Shown here piece after piece: positions 1,926-36,269 of a DNA stretch of 37,607 nucleotides. The notes beneath the pieces are model-generated. The model worked only from the letters and a program-made list of their open reading frames with translations. It was not told where the DNA came from and ran no database searches. The DNA comes from Bacteroidota bacterium (GTDB taxonomy: Bacteria; Bacteroidota; Bacteroidia; Sphingobacteriales; Sphingobacteriaceae). Numbering within the stretch: position 1 is the stretch's first letter; each line of letters starts with the position of its first letter. The DNA is taken from NCBI GenBank assembly GCA_018828585.1, contig JAHJVW010000141.1, positions 1-37,607 on the forward strand. Reading direction: 5' to 3'. Position numbers and translations under genes: made by a program.

Positions 1926-3707
1926 TTACTTGTTTTTCTGTTGTTGATTTTGTTGTTTTTGTCTCATCATTTCTTCCATTTTCTTTTGGAAACCACCAGT
2001 CTTTTTCTTGCTTTCTGGTTTTTTCTTATTCTCTTGAATTTGGGCGTGAATTTTATCATCATCAACAAACTTTCTAATAAAATACTGTTGTGAGAAGGTT
2101 AGAATATTAGCACAGAAATAGTAGTAATTTAAACCGGCAGGGTAGCTATTTAAAACACCAAAGAAAATAATTGGGGTAATGTATCCAATGTATTTCATTT
2201 GCCCCTGAGCGCCAGATACCTGATTATTAAAGTACGTATAAATTAATGTAGAAATGGTCATTAAAATACACATCAAACTAATATGACTTCCTATTACAGG
2301 TAAAGAAAAACCTAACTTAAAAAAATCATCATAAGTAGATAAATCATGCATCCACAAGAAACTTTCGTGTCTTAACTCAAATAAATTCGGGAAAAAATAG
2401 AAAAAGGCTAAGATAAATGGCATTTGGAATACCATTGGTAAACATCCACCTAAGGGATTTACACCGGCTTGTTTATATAATTTTAGATATTCTTGTTGTA
2501 CTAATGCTTGATTTCCTTCACCAACTTTTTTCTTAATCTCATCCATTTCAGGTTTCAGAACCCTCATCTTAGCCATGGATAGATAAGATTTATAGGTAAA
2601 CGGAAATAATACTGATTTTAAAATGATGGTTAATAAAAGGATAATTAATCCATAACCCAAGTTTAAGCTTTCAAAGAAATTGAAGATGGGCAATACCAAG
2701 AAGCGGTTAATCCACTTTAAAGGTCCCCAGCCCATTTTAACCATTTTCTCTAAATCATTTCCCTGATCCTTTAATTGGCTAAATTTATTTGAACCAAAAT
2801 AGAACTGCATGTCATAACTGTTGAGATCTTGATTTTTAAAAGGTAAAGTTAATTTGGTTGAATATGCTTTTATTGCAGAGCTATCTGGAAGCGCCTCAAT
2901 TTTAACAGTTGCTTTACTAAAACCTTCTTTTGAAATAATGGCGCCCGAAAAGAAATGTTCTTTAAAAGCCACCCATTTTACTTTTTGGCCTTCAAGAACC
3001 TTTTCACCATCTTTTCCTTCATTTAAATAATCAACACCGTCATTTGCTTGATCATAATAAGTGGTAGAGTACATTCTTTCATTTTTGATGTCCCTTTCTT
3101 GTTGTAATAATTTAGTACTCCAATCTAAAACAAGGTTATTGGTGATCTTATTTTGAAAACCTTTAACATCCATTTTAAAATCGACTTTGTAAGAATCAGG
3201 TTGTAACGAATAGGTATAATTTACAAATGAACCATCAGGATTTTGCATTTGCATCACTATGCTACGGCCATCTTGACTAACCTTGTTAAATGGCTGAGAA
3301 GAAGTATTACCTTCTTTATACGCTATTCCAAATTTAGTATCCGCATCATTAAATAGTATAACTGGCTTACCTTCATAAGTAGTTTCTTTTTTAATTTCTA
3401 CGCTGGCAATCCTACCACCGATATTAGAAATACTCAATTTGATTAAGTTATTTTCTAAAGTGAAAATTTCATCTCTAATGTCTGCTGAATTTGTGATACC
3501 TGAATCTGATGCTAAGGTGGAACCTGCTTTGGCTGCAATGGGCATTTGTACCACTTTCTTTTGACTAACCGAATTTTCTTTTAGCACTGCAATAGAATCT
3601 TGCATGGCTTTTTTCTTCAATTCTTCTGATGATGGCTTTAAAAGAAAGGTTGATCCTACTAAAATTATTAAAATCAGGAATAATCCTGTAAACGTATTTC
3701 TATCCAT
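1926..3707 (-). CDS. yidC: Membrane protein insertase YidC
   Basis: Inserts and folds inner-membrane proteins, alone or with SecYEG. The 593-residue protein starts with one membrane segment (about residues 7-24), then has a large periplasmic domain (about 75-325). The insertase core follows, with hydrophobic segments in NLGYGLIILLLTIILKSVLF, LGGCLPMVFQMPFILAFFYF, ISLMCILMTISTLIYTY and YIGYITPIIFFGVLNSYPAG. The first segment is followed by the KSYLSMAKMRVLKPEMDEIKKK cytoplasmic hairpin. The tail is Lys/Gln-rich and likely binds ribosomes. It follows pyrG by 33 bases on the same strand, probably in one transcript that ends at the adjacent terminator. The periplasmic domain and length fit Gram-negative YidC. 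Confidence 0.97.
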   Translation of the reverse strand: MDRNTFTGLFLILIILVGSTFLLKPSSEELKKKAMQDSIAVLKENSVSQKKVVQMPIAAKAGSTLASDSGITNSADIRDEIFTLENNLIKLSISNIGGRIASVEIKKETTYEGKPVILFNDADTKFGIAYKEGNTSSQPFNKVSQDGRSIVMQMQNPDGSFVNYTYSLQPDSYKVDFKMDVKGFQNKITNNLVLDWSTKLLQQERDIKNERMYSTTYYDQANDGVDYLNEGKDGEKVLEGQKVKWVAFKEHFFSGAIISKEGFSKATVKIEALPDSSAIKAYSTKLTLPFKNQDLNSYDMQFYFGSNKFSQLKDQGNDLEKMVKMGWGPLKWINRFLVLPIFNFFESLNLGYGLIILLLTIILKSVLFPFTYKSYLSMAKMRVLKPEMDEIKKKVGEGNQALVQQEYLKLYKQAGVNPLGGCLPMVFQMPFILAFFYFFPNLFELRHESFLWMHDLSTYDDFFKLGFSLPVIGSHISLMCILMTISTLIYTYFNNQVSGAQGQMKYIGYITPIIFFGVLNSYPAGLNYYYFCANILTFSQQYFIRKFVDDDKIHAQIQENKKKPESKKKTGGFQKKMEEMMRQKQQNQQQKNK

Positions 3708-30602: not shown

Positions 30603-31439
30603 TTGAAAAGTCTTCTTTTAATCCCTTTTTTAATAATGAATATTTTTGTTGCATTAGCCGGTGTCAAGAAAGAAAAAGATTTGGCTTACGCTGATGCTGG
30701 AACATCCAATTTATTAGATATCTACCATTCAGATCAGTTTTCAAAACCTCAGGATGTTATTGTTTTTATTCACGGTGGTTCATGGAATAGCGGTTCGAAA
30801 GATACTTATTGGTTTTTAGGAAGAAACTTTGCCCGAAAAGGTAAAATAGTAGTCGTCATTAATTATCAATTATCACCAGAAGTCCAATACGATGCGATGG
30901 CCTATGATTGCGCAAAAGCGGTCAAATGGGTTAAAAATCATATTCAAGAATATGGGGGAAACCCCAATCAAATTTTTGTGATGGGCCACTCTGCAGGGGG
31001 ACATTTAGCAGCATTGATTAATCAAAATCCTAAATATTTTAATCAAGCGGGTATTCAAAATCCTATTAAAGGAGTTATTTTAAATGATCCTTTTGGCTTA
31101 AATATCTATCAATATATGAAACTACAAATCAATACGGATGATAAATATATACCTGGGTTTTTAAAAGTTTTTGGTGCTGATGAAGAAGAATGGAAGAATG
31201 CATCTCCCATTTTTACTGTCGATCAAATTCAAAATCCTTATCAACTTTTTTCGGGTTCAAAAACTTACCCATCTATTCAAATGCAAACTCCTGCTTTTTA
31301 TAAGGCACTAAAAGAAAATCATAAATCCGTCAGTTTTGAAATCATTAATGGGAAAAAACATATTGGAATGATTACACAAATGATTTTCGGTTGTAATAAG
31401 ATGTATGATAAAATCATTGATTTTATAGATAAACACTAA
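30603..31439 (+). CDS. Exported alpha/beta hydrolase, TTG start
   Basis: 278 residues. Starts at a TTG (30603), four bases after the SDR stop, giving a signal peptide MKSLLLIPFLIMNIFVALAG; the next ATG, 33 bases in, would lose the charged n-region. The hydrolase core shows the oxyanion segment HGG (57-59) and nucleophile S130 in GHSAG, with a late His in KKHIGMI. HGG with GHSAG fits the hormone-sensitive lipase/carboxylesterase branch (BD-FAE-like). It likely cleaves an ester in the periplasm. The 3' end overlaps the convergent channel gene by four bases. Confidence 0.88.
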   Translation: MKSLLLIPFLIMNIFVALAGVKKEKDLAYADAGTSNLLDIYHSDQFSKPQDVIVFIHGGSWNSGSKDTYWFLGRNFARKGKIVVVINYQLSPEVQYDAMAYDCAKAVKWVKNHIQEYGGNPNQIFVMGHSAGGHLAALINQNPKYFNQAGIQNPIKGVILNDPFGLNIYQYMKLQINTDDKYIPGFLKVFGADEEEWKNASPIFTVDQIQNPYQLFSGSKTYPSIQMQTPAFYKALKENHKSVSFEIINGKKHIGMITQMIFGCNKMYDKIIDFIDKH

Positions 31440-32377
31440 TTAAGCAGCGAATAATCACTTACTTTTGAAATATCTATAGAAAAAACACCGTCTTCATCAG
31501 TTTTAATGATTTGGTCGAATTTTGCGTCAAAAACAATTTCGCTTGCCTGATAAGAAGTTCGAGAATGCACATTTTGAGAAAAAGCATCATCAAAAGCTTT
31601 CAAGAATATAACAAACTCAGCTTCGCTGTCTAATAAATCTCTTTTATTCAAGCCATAAAGTGGGCTATCCTCCGTAATTGGATGAACTATGGTCCACCCT
31701 AAAGTAAGTAACTGAATGGCTTTCCTTTCTAATTCTAGTTGGACAAATCTTCTAGTGGGTTTCCCATTTTCTGATATATTGATACTCAACATGACATTTA
31801 TTTCTAAATCAATTAATTGATTACTCCTTAAATTGGCTAGTCTAAACATATATGCTTTTCCATCCTGATAAGGAGCTACAATTATTTTTTCGCTATAAAC
31901 CATTTTAGCTGTTGGGCGAGAAAACCTTCCATATAATAAACCGGTGGCCAATGCAAAGGTTAATAAACCAATAAAAGATTCTAATGCGGCAACAATATTG
32001 GTAATAAAACCAGAAGGACTTAAATGACCATACCCAACAGTAGCAATTGTTTGCGCAGAAAAAAAGAAGGCATCAGCAAATTTTGTAAGCGGTGTTAAAC
32101 TAACCGAGCCATTTAAATGCTCCATACCTAGTAAAAAGTAAATGGTTGCAAACAATAAATTAATGAGGATGTAAGAAATTGATACAGTGACCCAAAACCT
32201 ATTCCAACTCATATAAATTAGCGAGTTATAGGCCTCATGTGGCTTAAAAAAAGGAAGTCCTTTTCTTCTAACATTAGAACTGCCGTCTTTATTTAGCAAA
32301 CGCTGATTATTAGTAGTTGGATTTTTTCCAAATCCCATATCCTCGTCTACATTGGCTTTTCCTTTTAGTTTAATCAT
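31436..32377 (-). CDS. KirBac-like inward rectifier potassium channel
   Basis: 313 residues. Two membrane helices (about 61-84 and 124-150) flank a pore loop with the K+ filter TVGYG at 113-117 (SAQTIATVGYGHLSP). The C-terminal half (about 158-300) is the immunoglobulin-like cytoplasmic domain of the Kir family (MVYSEKIIVAPYQDGKAYMFRLANLRSNQL region). It should form tetramers conducting K+. Divergent from the trp leader. Confidence 0.94.
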   Translation of the reverse strand: MIKLKGKANVDEDMGFGKNPTTNNQRLLNKDGSSNVRRKGLPFFKPHEAYNSLIYMSWNRFWVTVSISYILINLLFATIYFLLGMEHLNGSVSLTPLTKFADAFFFSAQTIATVGYGHLSPSGFITNIVAALESFIGLLTFALATGLLYGRFSRPTAKMVYSEKIIVAPYQDGKAYMFRLANLRSNQLIDLEINVMLSINISENGKPTRRFVQLELERKAIQLLTLGWTIVHPITEDSPLYGLNKRDLLDSEAEFVIFLKAFDDAFSQNVHSRTSYQASEIVFDAKFDQIIKTDEDGVFSIDISKVSDYSLLN

Positions 32378-32408: not shown

Positions 32409-32438
32409 TTTGGAATATTCAAAATTTTACCATATTTG
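32409..32438 (+). promoter_or_regulatory. trp operon promoter
   Basis: A TTTG at 32409-32412 and CATATTTG at 32431-32438 (7 of 8 matches to TAnnTTTG), 18 bases apart, fit the Bacteroidota -33/-7 pattern. The transcript would begin close to the leader peptide ATG at 32449. Confidence 0.6.
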
Positions 32439-32448
32439 CGACGTAAAG

Positions 32449-32502
32449 ATGAAAAATTTAAATGTAAATACAATCTGGTGGTGGCATTACGAAAATTCGT
32501 AA
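32449..32502 (+). CDS. trpL: trp operon leader peptide
   Basis: Seventeen codons, MKNLNVNTIWWWHYENS, ending in TAA at 32500-32502. Three consecutive TGG codons (32476-32484) in such a short peptide, 80 bases before trpD and followed by competing hairpins and a terminator, identify it as a ribosome-stalling sensor of charged tRNA-Trp. The peptide itself needs no other function. It starts 11 bases after the -7 element, so its message is nearly leaderless. Confidence 0.9.
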   Translation: MKNLNVNTIWWWHYENS

Positions 32503-32566
32503 GGCTTAACCTGATTATTTACAAAATGATATAATAGAGGGTTGCCGTTGGTAACCCTTTTTTTTT
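32476..32566 (+). promoter_or_regulatory. trp attenuator (competing RNA hairpins)
   Basis: Region 1 (Trp codons and TTACGAA, to 32493) pairs with region 2 (TTCGTAA at 32496-32502, continuing into GGCTTAACC). Region 2 (GGC at 32503-32505 and AACCT at 32508-32512) can instead pair with region 3, GGGTTGCC (32539-32546), the 5' arm of the terminator. A ribosome stalled at Trp codons covers region 1 and frees 2:3, so transcription continues. A ribosome that reaches the stop codon covers region 2 and lets the terminator form. Confidence 0.85.
32539..32566 (+). terminator. Attenuator terminator before trpD
   Basis: Eight-pair stem GGGTTGCC/GGTAACCC (one G-U pair) with a GTT loop, followed directly by nine T residues (32558-32566). 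It ends 16 bases before the trpD start, so it can only act as a conditional terminator. Confidence 0.9.
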
Positions 32567-32582
32567 GATTAAAAACAAAAAG

Positions 32583-33581
32583 ATGAAAGCGATTTTAAAT
32601 CACTTATTTGAACAAAAAACTTTTAGCAGAGAACAGTCCAAAGAAATTTTAACCAATATTTCTTTAGGTAAATTTAATGCCTCACAAATGACCGCATTTA
32701 TGACTGCCTATTGCATGAGAAACATCACTGTTGAGGAGTTACAAGGCTTTAGAGAGGCCATGATTGAGCTTTGTATCCCTGTAAATTTAACTAATGAGTT
32801 TAATCTTATCGATTTATGCGGTACAGGTGGCGACGGTAAAGACACTTTTAATATCTCAACATTAGCATCTTTTGTTGTTGCGGGGGCGGGATATCAAGTC
32901 GCTAAACATGGTAATTATGGTGTTTCTTCTAGCTGTGGTTCCTCAAACGTGATGGAGTATTTAGGCTATAAATTCACCAATGATGAATCTGTTTTAAAGA
33001 AATCTTTACACGAAGCTGGAATATGTTTTTTACATGCACCACTTTTTCACCCAGCTATGAAAAACGTTGCGCCCATTAGAAGAGAACTAGGGGTGAAAAC
33101 ATTTTTTAATATGTTAGGGCCAATGGTGAATCCTGCTCAACCTCAAAATCAAATAGTTGGAGTTTTTAGTTTGGAGTTAGCTCGATTATATGCCTACTTA
33201 TATCAACAATCTAATAAAAACTATACCATTTTACATGCACTAGAAGGATATGACGAGGTCTCTTTAACTTGTGATTTTAAAACTTTTTCTAATAAAGGAG
33301 AGCAAATTCATAGTATTGAGAGTTTGGGATTTGAACAGATTGATGCAGCAACCATAAGTGGTGGAAGCACAATTGAAGAATCTGCTGAAATATTTAAGAA
33401 AGTATTATCAAATAAGGCTTCTCATCAACAAAGAGATGTTGTTTTATGTAATGCAGCATTAGCCATTCAAACGGTAGATCAGCAAAAATCATTTGGGGAT
33501 TGTTATTATTTAGCCGAACAATCTTTAGCAGGAGGTAAAGCTTTACAATCTTTTCAAAAACTAATTGCAATTAGTAATTAA
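32583..33581 (+). CDS. trpD: Anthranilate phosphoribosyltransferase
   Basis: Transfers phosphoribose from PRPP to anthranilate in tryptophan synthesis. 332 residues. The PRPP-binding CGTGGDGKDTFN and the KHGNYGVSSSCGSSNVMEYLG segments are present, as is the anthranilate-site Arg in NVAPIRRELGVKTFFNMLGP. The frame also has a TTG at 32565 inside the terminator U-run; the ATG at 32583 is chosen because it lies beyond the attenuator. First structural gene of the operon; trpF starts two bases after its stop. Confidence 0.96.
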   Translation: MKAILNHLFEQKTFSREQSKEILTNISLGKFNASQMTAFMTAYCMRNITVEELQGFREAMIELCIPVNLTNEFNLIDLCGTGGDGKDTFNISTLASFVVAGAGYQVAKHGNYGVSSSCGSSNVMEYLGYKFTNDESVLKKSLHEAGICFLHAPLFHPAMKNVAPIRRELGVKTFFNMLGPMVNPAQPQNQIVGVFSLELARLYAYLYQQSNKNYTILHALEGYDEVSLTCDFKTFSNKGEQIHSIESLGFEQIDAATISGGSTIEESAEIFKKVLSNKASHQQRDVVLCNAALAIQTVDQQKSFGDCYYLAEQSLAGGKALQSFQKLIAISN

Positions 33582-33583
33582 AA

Positions 33584-34216
33584 ATGGACTTAAAGATAAA
33601 GGTTTGTGGGATGAGAAATGAAGCAAATGTGAACGCATTAGCGGCATTATGTCCAGATTTTATGGGGTTTATATTTTATCCGCCCTCAAAAAGATTTGTG
33701 GGATTAGCGTTCGATAAAAATCTTATCTCAAAATTACCTGATCAGATTATAAAAACTGGAGTCTTCGTGAATGCACAAGTTCATGAGGTGATTGAATTTA
33801 GTAAACTTTATGGTTTTAAAGCTGTTCAGTTACATGGAGATGAAACACCAGAATTTTGCCAAAAAATTAAAGGTGAAGGCTTTATTGTTTTAAAAGCTTT
33901 TGGTTTGGATGATGATTTTGATTTCGATAGTTTAAAAGCTTACGAAGCGTATGTCGATTATTTTTTGTTTGATACAAAAGTTGACACTTATGGAGGATCT
34001 GGACAAACCTTCGATTGGACTATTTTAGATAGCTATCTGTTAGATCAACCTTTCTTTTTAAGTGGAGGAGTAAGTTTAGATAATTTAGAAAGTATTAAAG
34101 AAATCAATCACCAGAAGTTTTACGGTTTAGATTTAAATTCAAAGTTCGAGATTGAACCTGGATTAAAAAATATAGAAAAATTAGCATTAGCATTTAGCTT
34201 GATTAAAAAATTATGA
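33584..34216 (+). CDS. trpF: Phosphoribosylanthranilate isomerase
   Basis: Converts phosphoribosylanthranilate to the ribulose derivative (Amadori rearrangement). 210-residue TIM barrel with the catalytic Cys in KVCGMRN near the N-terminus and the catalytic Asp in [18 protein letters not shown]; the phosphate-binding [11 protein letters not shown] follows. Separate from trpC, which is not in the window. Its TGA overlaps the trpB ATG, so the two are translationally coupled. Confidence 0.95.
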
Positions 34217-35400
34217 TCATGAATTATAGAGTGGACGATAGGGGTTATTATGGTGATTTTGGAGGAGCTTACATCCCAGAAATGCTTTATCCTAATATCG
34301 AGGAGTTAAGAAATGAATATTTAAAAACTATAGCTCAACCTGATTTTCAAAAAGAATTCAAAAGCTTATTGAAAGATTATGTGGGACGGCCTTCTCCATT
34401 ATTTCTGGCAAAAAGGTTATCAGAGAAATATGGGGCTCAGATTTATTTAAAAAGAGAAGATTTAAATCATACCGGAGCTCATAAAATTAATAACACAGTA
34501 GGTCAGATTATTTTGGCCCAAAAGCTGGGTAAGAAAAGGATCATTGCCGAAACAGGGGCTGGTCAGCATGGCGTGGCAACCGCGACAGTTTGTGCTTTAA
34601 AAGGCTTAGAATGCGTGATCTATATGGGTGAAGTTGACATTAAACGTCAAGCACCAAACGTTGCTCGTATGAAGATGATGGGCGCAACTGTTATTCCCGC
34701 TACCTCAGGAAGTAAAACCTTAAAGGACGCTACTAACGAAGCGATGAGAGACTGGATCAACAATCCAGTAGACACCCATTATATCATAGGCTCTGTTGTT
34801 GGACCGCACCCTTACCCAGAGATGGTTTCCCTATTTCAATCCATTATTTCTAAAGAAACTAAACAACAGTTAATCGAACAAACTGGTAACGATCAACCAG
34901 ACTATGTATTGGCTTGTGTGGGTGGTGGAAGTAATGCTATGGGCATGTTTTATCATTTTTTAGATGATGATAACGTAAGATTAATTGCAGCCGAAGCCGC
35001 TGGTTTAGGGATCAACTCTGGTCATTCGGCAGCCACCTCTATGCTTGGAAGAGAAGGTGTTTTGCATGGTTCAAGAACTATTTTAATGCAGACAGAAGAT
35101 GGTCAGGTTACCGAACCTTATTCAATTTCTGCAGGTTTAGATTATCCAGGAATTGGTCCGCAGCATGCGCATCTGCATAAGGTAAAAAGGGTTGAATATG
35201 TAAGTATTACCGATGATGAAGCCATGGAAGCAAGTATGGAACTATCTAAATTAGAAGGGATCATTCCGGCTATTGAAACAGGACATGCTTTGGCGCAACT
35301 CAAAAAAATGACTTTCAAAAAGGAGGATGTTGTTGTGATTTGCCTTTCCGGGAGAGGTGATAAGGATTTAGAAACTTTTATGAAATATTTTAACCTTTAG
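34213..35400 (+). CDS. trpB: Tryptophan synthase beta chain
   Basis: Condenses indole with serine. 395 residues from the ATG at 34213, which overlaps the trpF stop; an ATG at 34219 is equally possible and loses two residues. The PLP lysine is K91 in [12 protein letters not shown] (K89 from the later start); the phosphate-binding glycine loop is [10 protein letters not shown], and the GRGDKD segment lies near the C-terminus. The alpha-chain gene follows after 95 bases. Canonical TrpB1 type. Confidence 0.97.
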
Positions 35401-35495: not shown

Positions 35496-36269
35496 ATGAA
35501 CAGATTAACACAACTCTTTGAAAAAAAGAAAAACGATATACTTTCTATCTACTTCACAGCAGGTTATCCCGAAATAGGAGCAACGCTTAATATTGCAGAA
35601 GCTTTAGAGAAAGCAGGTGCAGATTTTTTAGAAATAGGTTTTCCTTATTCTGATCCTTTAGCTGACGGGCCAGTGATTCAACATAGTTCACAAGTGGCGA
35701 TAGAAAATGGGATGACTTTAAAAGTCCTGTTTGAACAATTGAAAGATTTAAGAAGTAGGGTTTCTATCCCAATATTATTAATGGGTTATGCTAATCCAAT
35801 GATTCAATACGGAGTGAGTAATTTTTGTAAGGTAGCCGCTGAGGTAGGAGTGGATGGTGTAATTGTGCCTGATTTACCATTATATGAGTATGAAGAACTT
35901 TATAAAAATGATTTCATCAGTAACGGATTAAGCAATATCTTTCTAGTAACGCCACAAACCTCTGAAGAACGGATCAGAAAGATAGATAGCCTCTCCAACG
36001 GATTTATCTATTTACTTTCATCTTCATCAACCACAGGGAAAGATTTGAATGTGTCGAATGAGATTGGCGACTATTATAACAGGGTAAAAGCGATGCATCT
36101 TAAAAATCCATTAATCATAGGATTTGGAATTTCAGATCATCAAAGTTTTTCCCGAGCAAATCAATATGCAAATGGCGCAATTGTAGGTACTGCTTTTGTG
36201 AAAGAATTAGGTGATCCAGAAAATTATTTGAGTCATATACCAGAATTTATCAGGAAAATTAAGGGTTAG
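35496..36269 (+). CDS. trpA: Tryptophan synthase alpha chain
   Basis: Cleaves indole-3-glycerol phosphate and channels indole to TrpB. 257-residue TIM barrel with the catalytic Glu and Asp in ADFLEIGFPYSDPLADGP, plus VDGVIVPDLPLYE and a phosphate-binding GFGISDHQS loop. Last gene of the operon. Its stop is one base from that of the convergent nhaA. Confidence 0.96.
   Translation: MNRLTQLFEKKKNDILSIYFTAGYPEIGATLNIAEALEKAGADFLEIGFPYSDPLADGPVIQHSSQVAIENGMTLKVLFEQLKDLRSRVSIPILLMGYANPMIQYGVSNFCKVAAEVGVDGVIVPDLPLYEYEELYKNDFISNGLSNIFLVTPQTSEERIRKIDSLSNGFIYLLSSSSTTGKDLNVSNEIGDYYNRVKAMHLKNPLIIGFGISDHQSFSRANQYANGAIVGTAFVKELGDPENYLSHIPEFIRKIKG

Follow-up and report, generated by a model that had tools for sequence, protein, structure and literature searches.

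Upstream of the tryptophan biosynthesis genes trpDFBA, a genome of the Sphingobacteriaceae carries a short open reading frame with consecutive Trp codons followed by a terminator, which raises the question of how transcription of these genes is controlled. We analyzed this locus in a 37,607-nt contig of a Bacteroidota bacterium (JAHJVW010000141.1; hereafter the window, meaning this whole stretch of DNA), for which an initial annotation had proposed a complete tryptophan attenuator of the enterobacterial type. From the analyses below, we hold it very probable that a ribosome-mediated transcription attenuator controls trpDFBA.

A Trp-rich leader and a terminator precede trpDFBA

The trpD gene and a divergent potassium channel gene are separated by 205 bp, and the leader lies inside this gap (Table 1). 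Since the neighboring gene is transcribed away from the leader, the terminator cannot serve as the end of an upstream gene. Apparent relatives of the potassium channel gene also stand beside the trp leader in two other loci (L009 and L018). The 17-codon leader with its TGG-TGG-TGG run, as first annotated, is present, as is the GC stem followed by exactly nine T residues. Scanning the two strands of the window turned up three short ORFs that start with ATG and contain a pair of neighboring Trp codons (WW), and only the leader ORF has a terminator behind it. Read directly, TTACGA and TCGTAA form a hairpin at 32487-32502 that has the stop codon within its 3' side, and GGTAACCC occupies 32550-32557.

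Table 1. Features of the trpD leader locus (window coordinates unless another contig is named) and of two further leaders in the same genome
Feature	Position	Strand	Basis or remark
-33 promoter element TTTG, predicted	32409-32412	+	sequence; centre ~-33 if +1 = 32443
-7 promoter element CATATTTG	32431-32438	+	one mismatch to consensus TAnnTTTG
Leader peptide ORF MKNLNVNTIWWWHYENS, stop codon included in span, 17 codons	32449-32502	+	sequence; conserved in relatives
Three consecutive Trp codons, TGG TGG TGG	32476-32484	+	putative ribosome stalling site
1:2 hairpin	32463-32523	+	minimum free energy (MFE) fold; 32463-32470 with 32516-32523, 32487-32492 with 32497-32502
Region 2, GGCTTAACC	32503-32511	+	directly 3' of stop codon; partner is region 1 or region 3
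Region 3, GGGTTGCC	32539-32546	+	terminator 5' arm, also partner of region 2
Intrinsic terminator stem-loop, regions 3 and 4	32536-32560	+	terminator scan, fold, relatives
Terminator T tract, exactly nine T	32558-32566	+	sequence
trpD, anthranilate phosphoribosyltransferase	32583-33581	+	PF00591, PF02885; name from these and context
trpF, phosphoribosylanthranilate isomerase	33584-34216	+	PF00697
trpB, tryptophan synthase beta	34213-35400	+	PF00291; TrpB by operon context
trpA, tryptophan synthase alpha	35496-36269	+	PF00290
Inward-rectifier potassium channel gene	31436-32377	-	PF17655, PF01007
Second Trp attenuator, predicted, before trpE-G-C: leader MNKNRYTNNSWWRSLKAASENLFVSF and terminator	G000 contig C109, L027 ~2890-3035	-	
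pheA leader, Phe/Tyr-rich, MNSNTTYYFGYFYFKNKSRD	G000 contig C95, L247 375-495	+	before prephenate dehydratase (pheA) and DAHP synthase gene

The 127-nt leader RNA folds to -35.8 kcal/mol, compared to -20.4 (sd 3.2) for shuffled sequences (z -4.9), and none of 200 shuffles was as stable. The 1:2 hairpin that had been proposed to sequester region 2 is present in the MFE fold of the window leader, but GGCTTAACC is paired in part only, with just its GCU and ACC paired to the Trp-codon side.

We infer from this arrangement that, when charged Trp-tRNA is scarce, the leading ribosome would stall on the TGG-TGG-TGG run and mask region 1, so that region 2 (GGCUUAACC) could base-pair with region 3 (GGGUUGCC); this 2:3 pairing would block the terminator and allow transcription of trpDFBA. 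With plentiful charged Trp-tRNA, the ribosome would reach the UAA codon, which abuts region 2, and cover region 2, so that regions 3 and 4 would pair and transcription would stop in the nine-U tract near 32566. If the leader were not translated, 1:2 pairing would form and would also lead to termination.

A predicted near-leaderless start

Housekeeping promoters of Bacteroidota carry TTTG near -33 and TAnnTTTG at -7 (PMC7366714), and the -7 box in Flavobacterium spans -12 to -5 (PMC9723704). The promoter-like pair noted earlier was found here as TTTG and a -7 element (Table 1), and this putative window promoter is a consensus match only. Because the -7 box spans -12 to -5 in Flavobacterium, we predict that transcription of the trpD leader starts at ~32443, some 6 nt before the leader ATG, with a 5' UTR of 6 nt. 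An enterobacterial-style promoter was considered and rejected: a sigma-70 scan returned five sites versus 8.7 in shuffles, its sole plus-strand match (32506-32535) falls inside the attenuator, and the TTTG/TAnnTTTG pair of Bacteroidota was preferred.

TTTG and the leader ATG are 7-13 nt apart in 47/57 trpD leaders and 5-10 nt apart in 24/27 trpE leaders (described below), where the predicted 5' UTRs are ~3-9 nt and ~1-6 nt, respectively, or 1-9 nt in 71/84 leaders overall. The relatives thus strongly support the near-leaderless leader peptide described in the initial annotation, and its question of how ribosome and polymerase are coupled is a fair one because the predicted 5' UTRs are so short. 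There is a precedent in Sinorhizobium meliloti, where the trpL transcript starts at its own ATG (PMC7298713). In the Bacteroidota, ~3.7% of 5' UTRs in Bacteroides thetaiotaomicron are given as shorter than 10 nt (PMC7366714), and 5.5% of mRNAs in Flavobacterium psychrophilum are described as leaderless (PMC9723704).

The trpD leader is conserved across the Sphingobacteriaceae

The closest named relatives of the window are Sphingobacteriaceae such as Pedobacter. A trpD gene is present in 184 of 201 genomes of the family, and we examined 70 of these loci, chosen regardless of whether a leader was present. In a first count, restricted to ATG starts within 350 nt of the gene, a WW ORF was present in 58 of 68 trpD regions compared to 15 of 1360 dinucleotide shuffles (the control being drawn from these first 68 regions, 350 nt each). 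With gene starts re-placed by tblastn, as was done for all counts within 400 nt (70 trpD and 30 trpE loci), 63/70 family loci have a WW leader upstream of trpD, and 47/70 have three consecutive Trp codons (WWW). Among the seven loci that lack a WW leader, three carry WRW, WCW or WLW variants (L053, L056, L113), one has a single Trp (L094), one is cut off where its contig stops (L121), and the remaining two, which belong to genus g3 (L116 and L122), are without any Trp leader. The run of Trp codons persists in the trpD leaders of relatives while the flanking leader residues vary.

A second set of 80 named loci, which shares genomes with the first and is not independent of it, gave a WW leader before trpD in 77; of the other three, one reads WCW, one has just a single Trp and one is on a truncated contig in which three TGG codons are still seen. 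These loci come mostly from Mucilaginibacter, Pedobacter and Daejeonella, with one titled Flavihumibacter and the rest including some Sphingobacteriaceae, Sphingobacteriales or Bacteroidetes bins. A terminator lies behind 57 of 58 WW trpD leaders from the first count; in the remaining genome (G177), which has a WW leader, the terminator search found none. The check that the initial annotation had suggested, of Trp codons and stems in the upstream regions of relatives, found the Trp codons, the terminator and the core of the antiterminator kept rather than lost. As judged from these comparisons, the leader is a real, widely conserved element, and it is conservation across the family that is decisive.

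Genus g3 has no Trp run before trpD (L116, L122) and a single Trp before trpE (L081, L087), and terminator-like hairpins are still visible before trpD in its loci L116 and L122. It is possible that the Trp sensor has been lost in this genus.

Alternative pairings in the trpD leaders

The structural analyses were made on the first-count sets, comprising 57 trpD and 27 trpE leaders. A MAFFT alignment of the leaders from the window's genus misaligned region 2 in several rows, and per-sequence duplexes were used instead. Folds predicted for the RNA as far as the terminator give region 2 at least two expected pairs with the Trp-codon stretch in 56/57 trpD leaders. The trpD leaders share an antiterminator core in which GGCAA..CC pairs with GGGUUGCC, and the antiterminator duplex is better than with shuffled spacers at p<=0.05 in 35/57 leaders and at p<=0.01 in 8/57, with 22/57 not reaching 0.05. 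In the window, the 2:3 duplex of GGC[UU]AACC with GGUUGCC is no better than shuffles (p 0.149). The 2:3 antiterminator described in the initial annotation is thus upheld for its core, which is kept in relatives, but not for the window sequence by itself, and the predicted window antiterminator is convincing through relatives only.

When region 2 and arm 3 were swapped among trpD leaders, native pairs scored -11.2 and swapped pairs -10.8, and the native pair was better in 46/57, a weak difference that is slight because the core hardly varies. Compensated changes across the alternative partners occur at position -2 of the terminator arm (U:A:U in 2/57) and at position +3 (A:U:A in 3/57). Together with the 35/57 duplexes, these few compensated changes support a mutually exclusive terminator and antiterminator at the level of the family.

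Across trpD relatives, the spacing between region 2 and the stop codon varies: relative to where the stop codon ends, region 2 begins anywhere between 25 nt upstream and 6 nt downstream. The enterobacterial geometry that had been claimed is accordingly supported in its 1:2, 2:3 and 3:4 logic, but its placement of the stop codon is kept in only part of the family. In seven loci (L046, L048, L052, L055, L088, L101, L124) region 2 is contained in the leader ORF, with its start 24-25 nt upstream of where the stop codon ends, and to block it the ribosome would have to sit elsewhere than it would in the window.

Alternative explanations of the leader

The terminator might instead be operated by a leader that senses a ligand or a protein, such as a T-box, a TRAP-like device or a riboswitch, with the Trp-rich ORF being incidental. 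While a terminator before a biosynthetic operon is compatible with any such sensing device, no T-box or riboswitch family reached its gathering score in the window, where only two tRNAs did, and the retention of the Trp run as other leader residues change is hard to explain without translation. We regard a sensing leader of this kind as very unlikely. Equally improbable, in our assessment, is that the leader ORF mainly aids translation of trpD by reinitiation or coupling, with the terminator giving constant partial read-through. Leader ORFs are described as able to raise downstream translation, but the leader stop lies 80 nt from trpD in the window and 66-231 nt from it in relatives, compared to a peak at 11-14 nt reported for Bacteroidetes in the same source (PMC4833913), and reinitiation or coupling would not need the Trp codons to be conserved.

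That a random WWW ORF happens to lie beside an ordinary terminator has next to no probability. Terminator-like sites are expected at 1.2 per 2 kb by chance, one was found in the 2 kb around the leader, and the window terminator, taken alone, is not significant. Against a chance association stand the excess of WW ORFs over shuffles (58/68 vs 15/1360), their presence at 63/70 loci with re-placed starts, and the fold z of -4.9, and the chance explanation is refuted because the leader is conserved across the family. We retain ribosome-mediated attenuation as the most likely explanation of the trpD leader.

Relation to RF01692 and to other trp leaders

The defining features of the Rfam family RF01692 (Bacteroid-trp) are a short ORF, at least two Trp codons within it, and a terminator downstream. 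The window has a Trp-codon ORF and a terminator of this kind, and their position upstream of trpDFBA in a Bacteroidota genome agrees with the location of the family. The window scores 42.8 bits against RF01692, below the 49-bit gathering score (E 4.3e-4; 241 nt, all families), and leaders at the same position in three genomes of the same genus pass it (54.7, 51.0 and 49.4 bits in G003, G009 and G014). The window leader is a sub-threshold homologue of RF01692 and no formal member of the Rfam family. It shares with RF01692 a full-length match to the model (1-131), the Trp-codon ORF, the hairpin, the 5' arm of the terminator and the phylum.

RF01692 is listed as a Bacteroidota family in Table 1 of Weinberg et al. 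2010 (PMC2864571), Bacteroid-Trp is named upstream of the trp operon of F. psychrophilum (PMC6414381), and for the same species clues for leader-peptide attenuation before amino-acid operons have been described, along with 5' elements of pheA and hisG (PMC9723704). With these reports, the suggestion in the initial annotation that the phylum had no well-described example does not hold. The impression that Bacteroidota are without a described trp attenuator is thereby corrected. The attenuation in F. psychrophilum is from the same phylum as the window but from a different family.

In 60 related genomes, including the window's, RF01692 matched 22 at E<=0.1; four of these passed the cut-off, and the window's genus accounts for three. 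Taking 20 short trpD regions from genera other than the window's, we found an RF01692 match at E<=0.05 in three, although a WW leader is present in 20/20; the model misses many members in the family. In a sample of the phylum, 35 of 296 genomes had a match at E<=0.01. When RF01692 loci were searched with TrpE and TrpD as queries, TrpE was the first match in 31/31 loci outside the family (29 new from the phylum sample, plus L017 and L020; in L212 it lies ~1.3 kb further on), whereas three of the four family loci searched have trpD and the last one (L005) lies where its contig ends. From these counts (31/31 versus 3/4), leaders of the RF01692 type precede trpE elsewhere but trpD in the Sphingobacteriaceae, where a second, unlike leader serves trpE.

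The enterobacterial trp attenuator (trpL; RF00513, Trp_leader) combines Trp codons, alternative 1:2, 2:3 and 3:4 pairings and a stop codon beside region 2, and its leader in E. coli contains WW. The window shares the Trp codons, the three alternative pairings, as predicted, and the stop codon beside region 2. It differs in having WWW, in preceding trpD rather than trpE, and in a predicted 5' UTR of 6 nt, which leaves no room for a Shine-Dalgarno sequence. RF00513 was absent from the 21 window matches listed at E<=10 in the covariance-model scan. In S. meliloti, as in the window's genome, the Trp genes are distributed over several operons, and the leader ATG of trpL-trpE(G) is at the 5' end of the transcript, near to which it is predicted to lie in the window; one of the three S. 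meliloti trp operons, trpE(G), is described as attenuated, whereas in the window's genome both trp clusters found carry a predicted attenuator (PMC7298713).

A second, unlike leader precedes trpE-G-C

The trpE, trpG and trpC genes of the window's genome are on another contig, where they are preceded by a Trp leader (Table 1) with a terminator of CCCGACG...CGTCGGG. We examined trpE in 30 of the 184 genomes with a match and found a WW leader within 400 nt of trpE at 28/30 loci; the two misses (L081, L087) are those of genus g3 and have a single Trp in the same place. An ORF encoding MKDRNPWWNM recurs in five trpE regions, 231-240 nt upstream of the gene, and was left out of the leader counts; those five genomes have another WW leader. 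A terminator lies behind 27/27 of the trpE leaders tested.

Three-way covariation is clearer at trpE than at trpD. The trpE antiterminator duplex is better than shuffles at p<=0.05 in 15/27 leaders (p 0.06 in the window's genome), and the swap test is clear, with native pairs at -10.3, swapped pairs at -8.5, and the native pair better in 24/27. When 26 distinct trpE leaders were aligned, 90.3% of antiterminator cells and 98.6% of terminator cells were paired; 19 antiterminator cells are changed on both sides, compared to a shuffled mean of 7.1, with 0/500 shuffles reaching 19, and structures slid along the same alignment fared far worse. At one position of the terminator arm, A occurs with U on both partners in 14/27 leaders and G with C in 8/27, the remaining five not fully fitting. 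One and the same site of the trpE terminator arm thus covaries with both of its possible partners, which is what a switch demands; the sequences are related and stand for few independent events.

Scans of 14 trpE loci gave no Rfam family at E<=0.05, and the trpE leader of the window's genome is unmatched by RF01692. The scan of its locus (L027) returned six weak Rfam matches, all below their cut-offs, including RF00513 Trp_leader at 23.8 bits versus 41. A covariance model built from the trpE leaders (R1) gave matches at E<=0.01 in 44 of the 198 genomes searched in the phylum. Of ten R1 loci inspected, eight lie before trpE (the window's genome included) and two do not (L244, L246); many weaker R1 matches may be terminators of other genes, and we draw no distribution from R1. 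In another family, three loci (L242, L243, L245) have a similar leader ahead of trpE, with modest R1 scores of 40-48 bits.

A split pathway with two leaders

In 17 genomes with trpD and trpE on one contig, picked by eye among the matches listed, the two genes are at least 1.1 Mb apart. We consider it likely that, in the Sphingobacteriaceae, the pathway is split into distant trpEGC and trpDFBA clusters, each with its own near-leaderless ribosome-mediated attenuator unlike the other in sequence, such that charged tRNA-Trp would be read twice; the trpE-side RNA would have no Rfam family, and coupling would be governed by how ribosomes load onto the extreme 5' end of the nascent transcript. The novelty lies in the splitting of the pathway, with an attenuator for each half, and in the trpE-side RNA, which is uncatalogued; the type of the trpD attenuator was already catalogued in the phylum. 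No report of a split or double trp arrangement in Bacteroidota was found in the open-licence literature, and this argues only weakly that none exists. A pathway divided in this way offers a natural test of whether two RNA devices of unlike sequence are tuned to the same tRNA signal, and with two conserved leaders whose predicted 5' UTRs are below 10 nt, the coupling of transcription and translation from near-leaderless starts can be put to the test in Bacteroidota.

An R1 match also brought up a Phe/Tyr-rich leader before pheA in the window's genome (Table 1). Its peptide contains YYFGYFYF, with Tyr or Phe at 7 of 20 codons, and its fold has a z of -5.1, with 0/200 shuffles as stable. Within this leader, GAGCCGGG and the terminator arm CCCGGCTC are perfect complements of each other.
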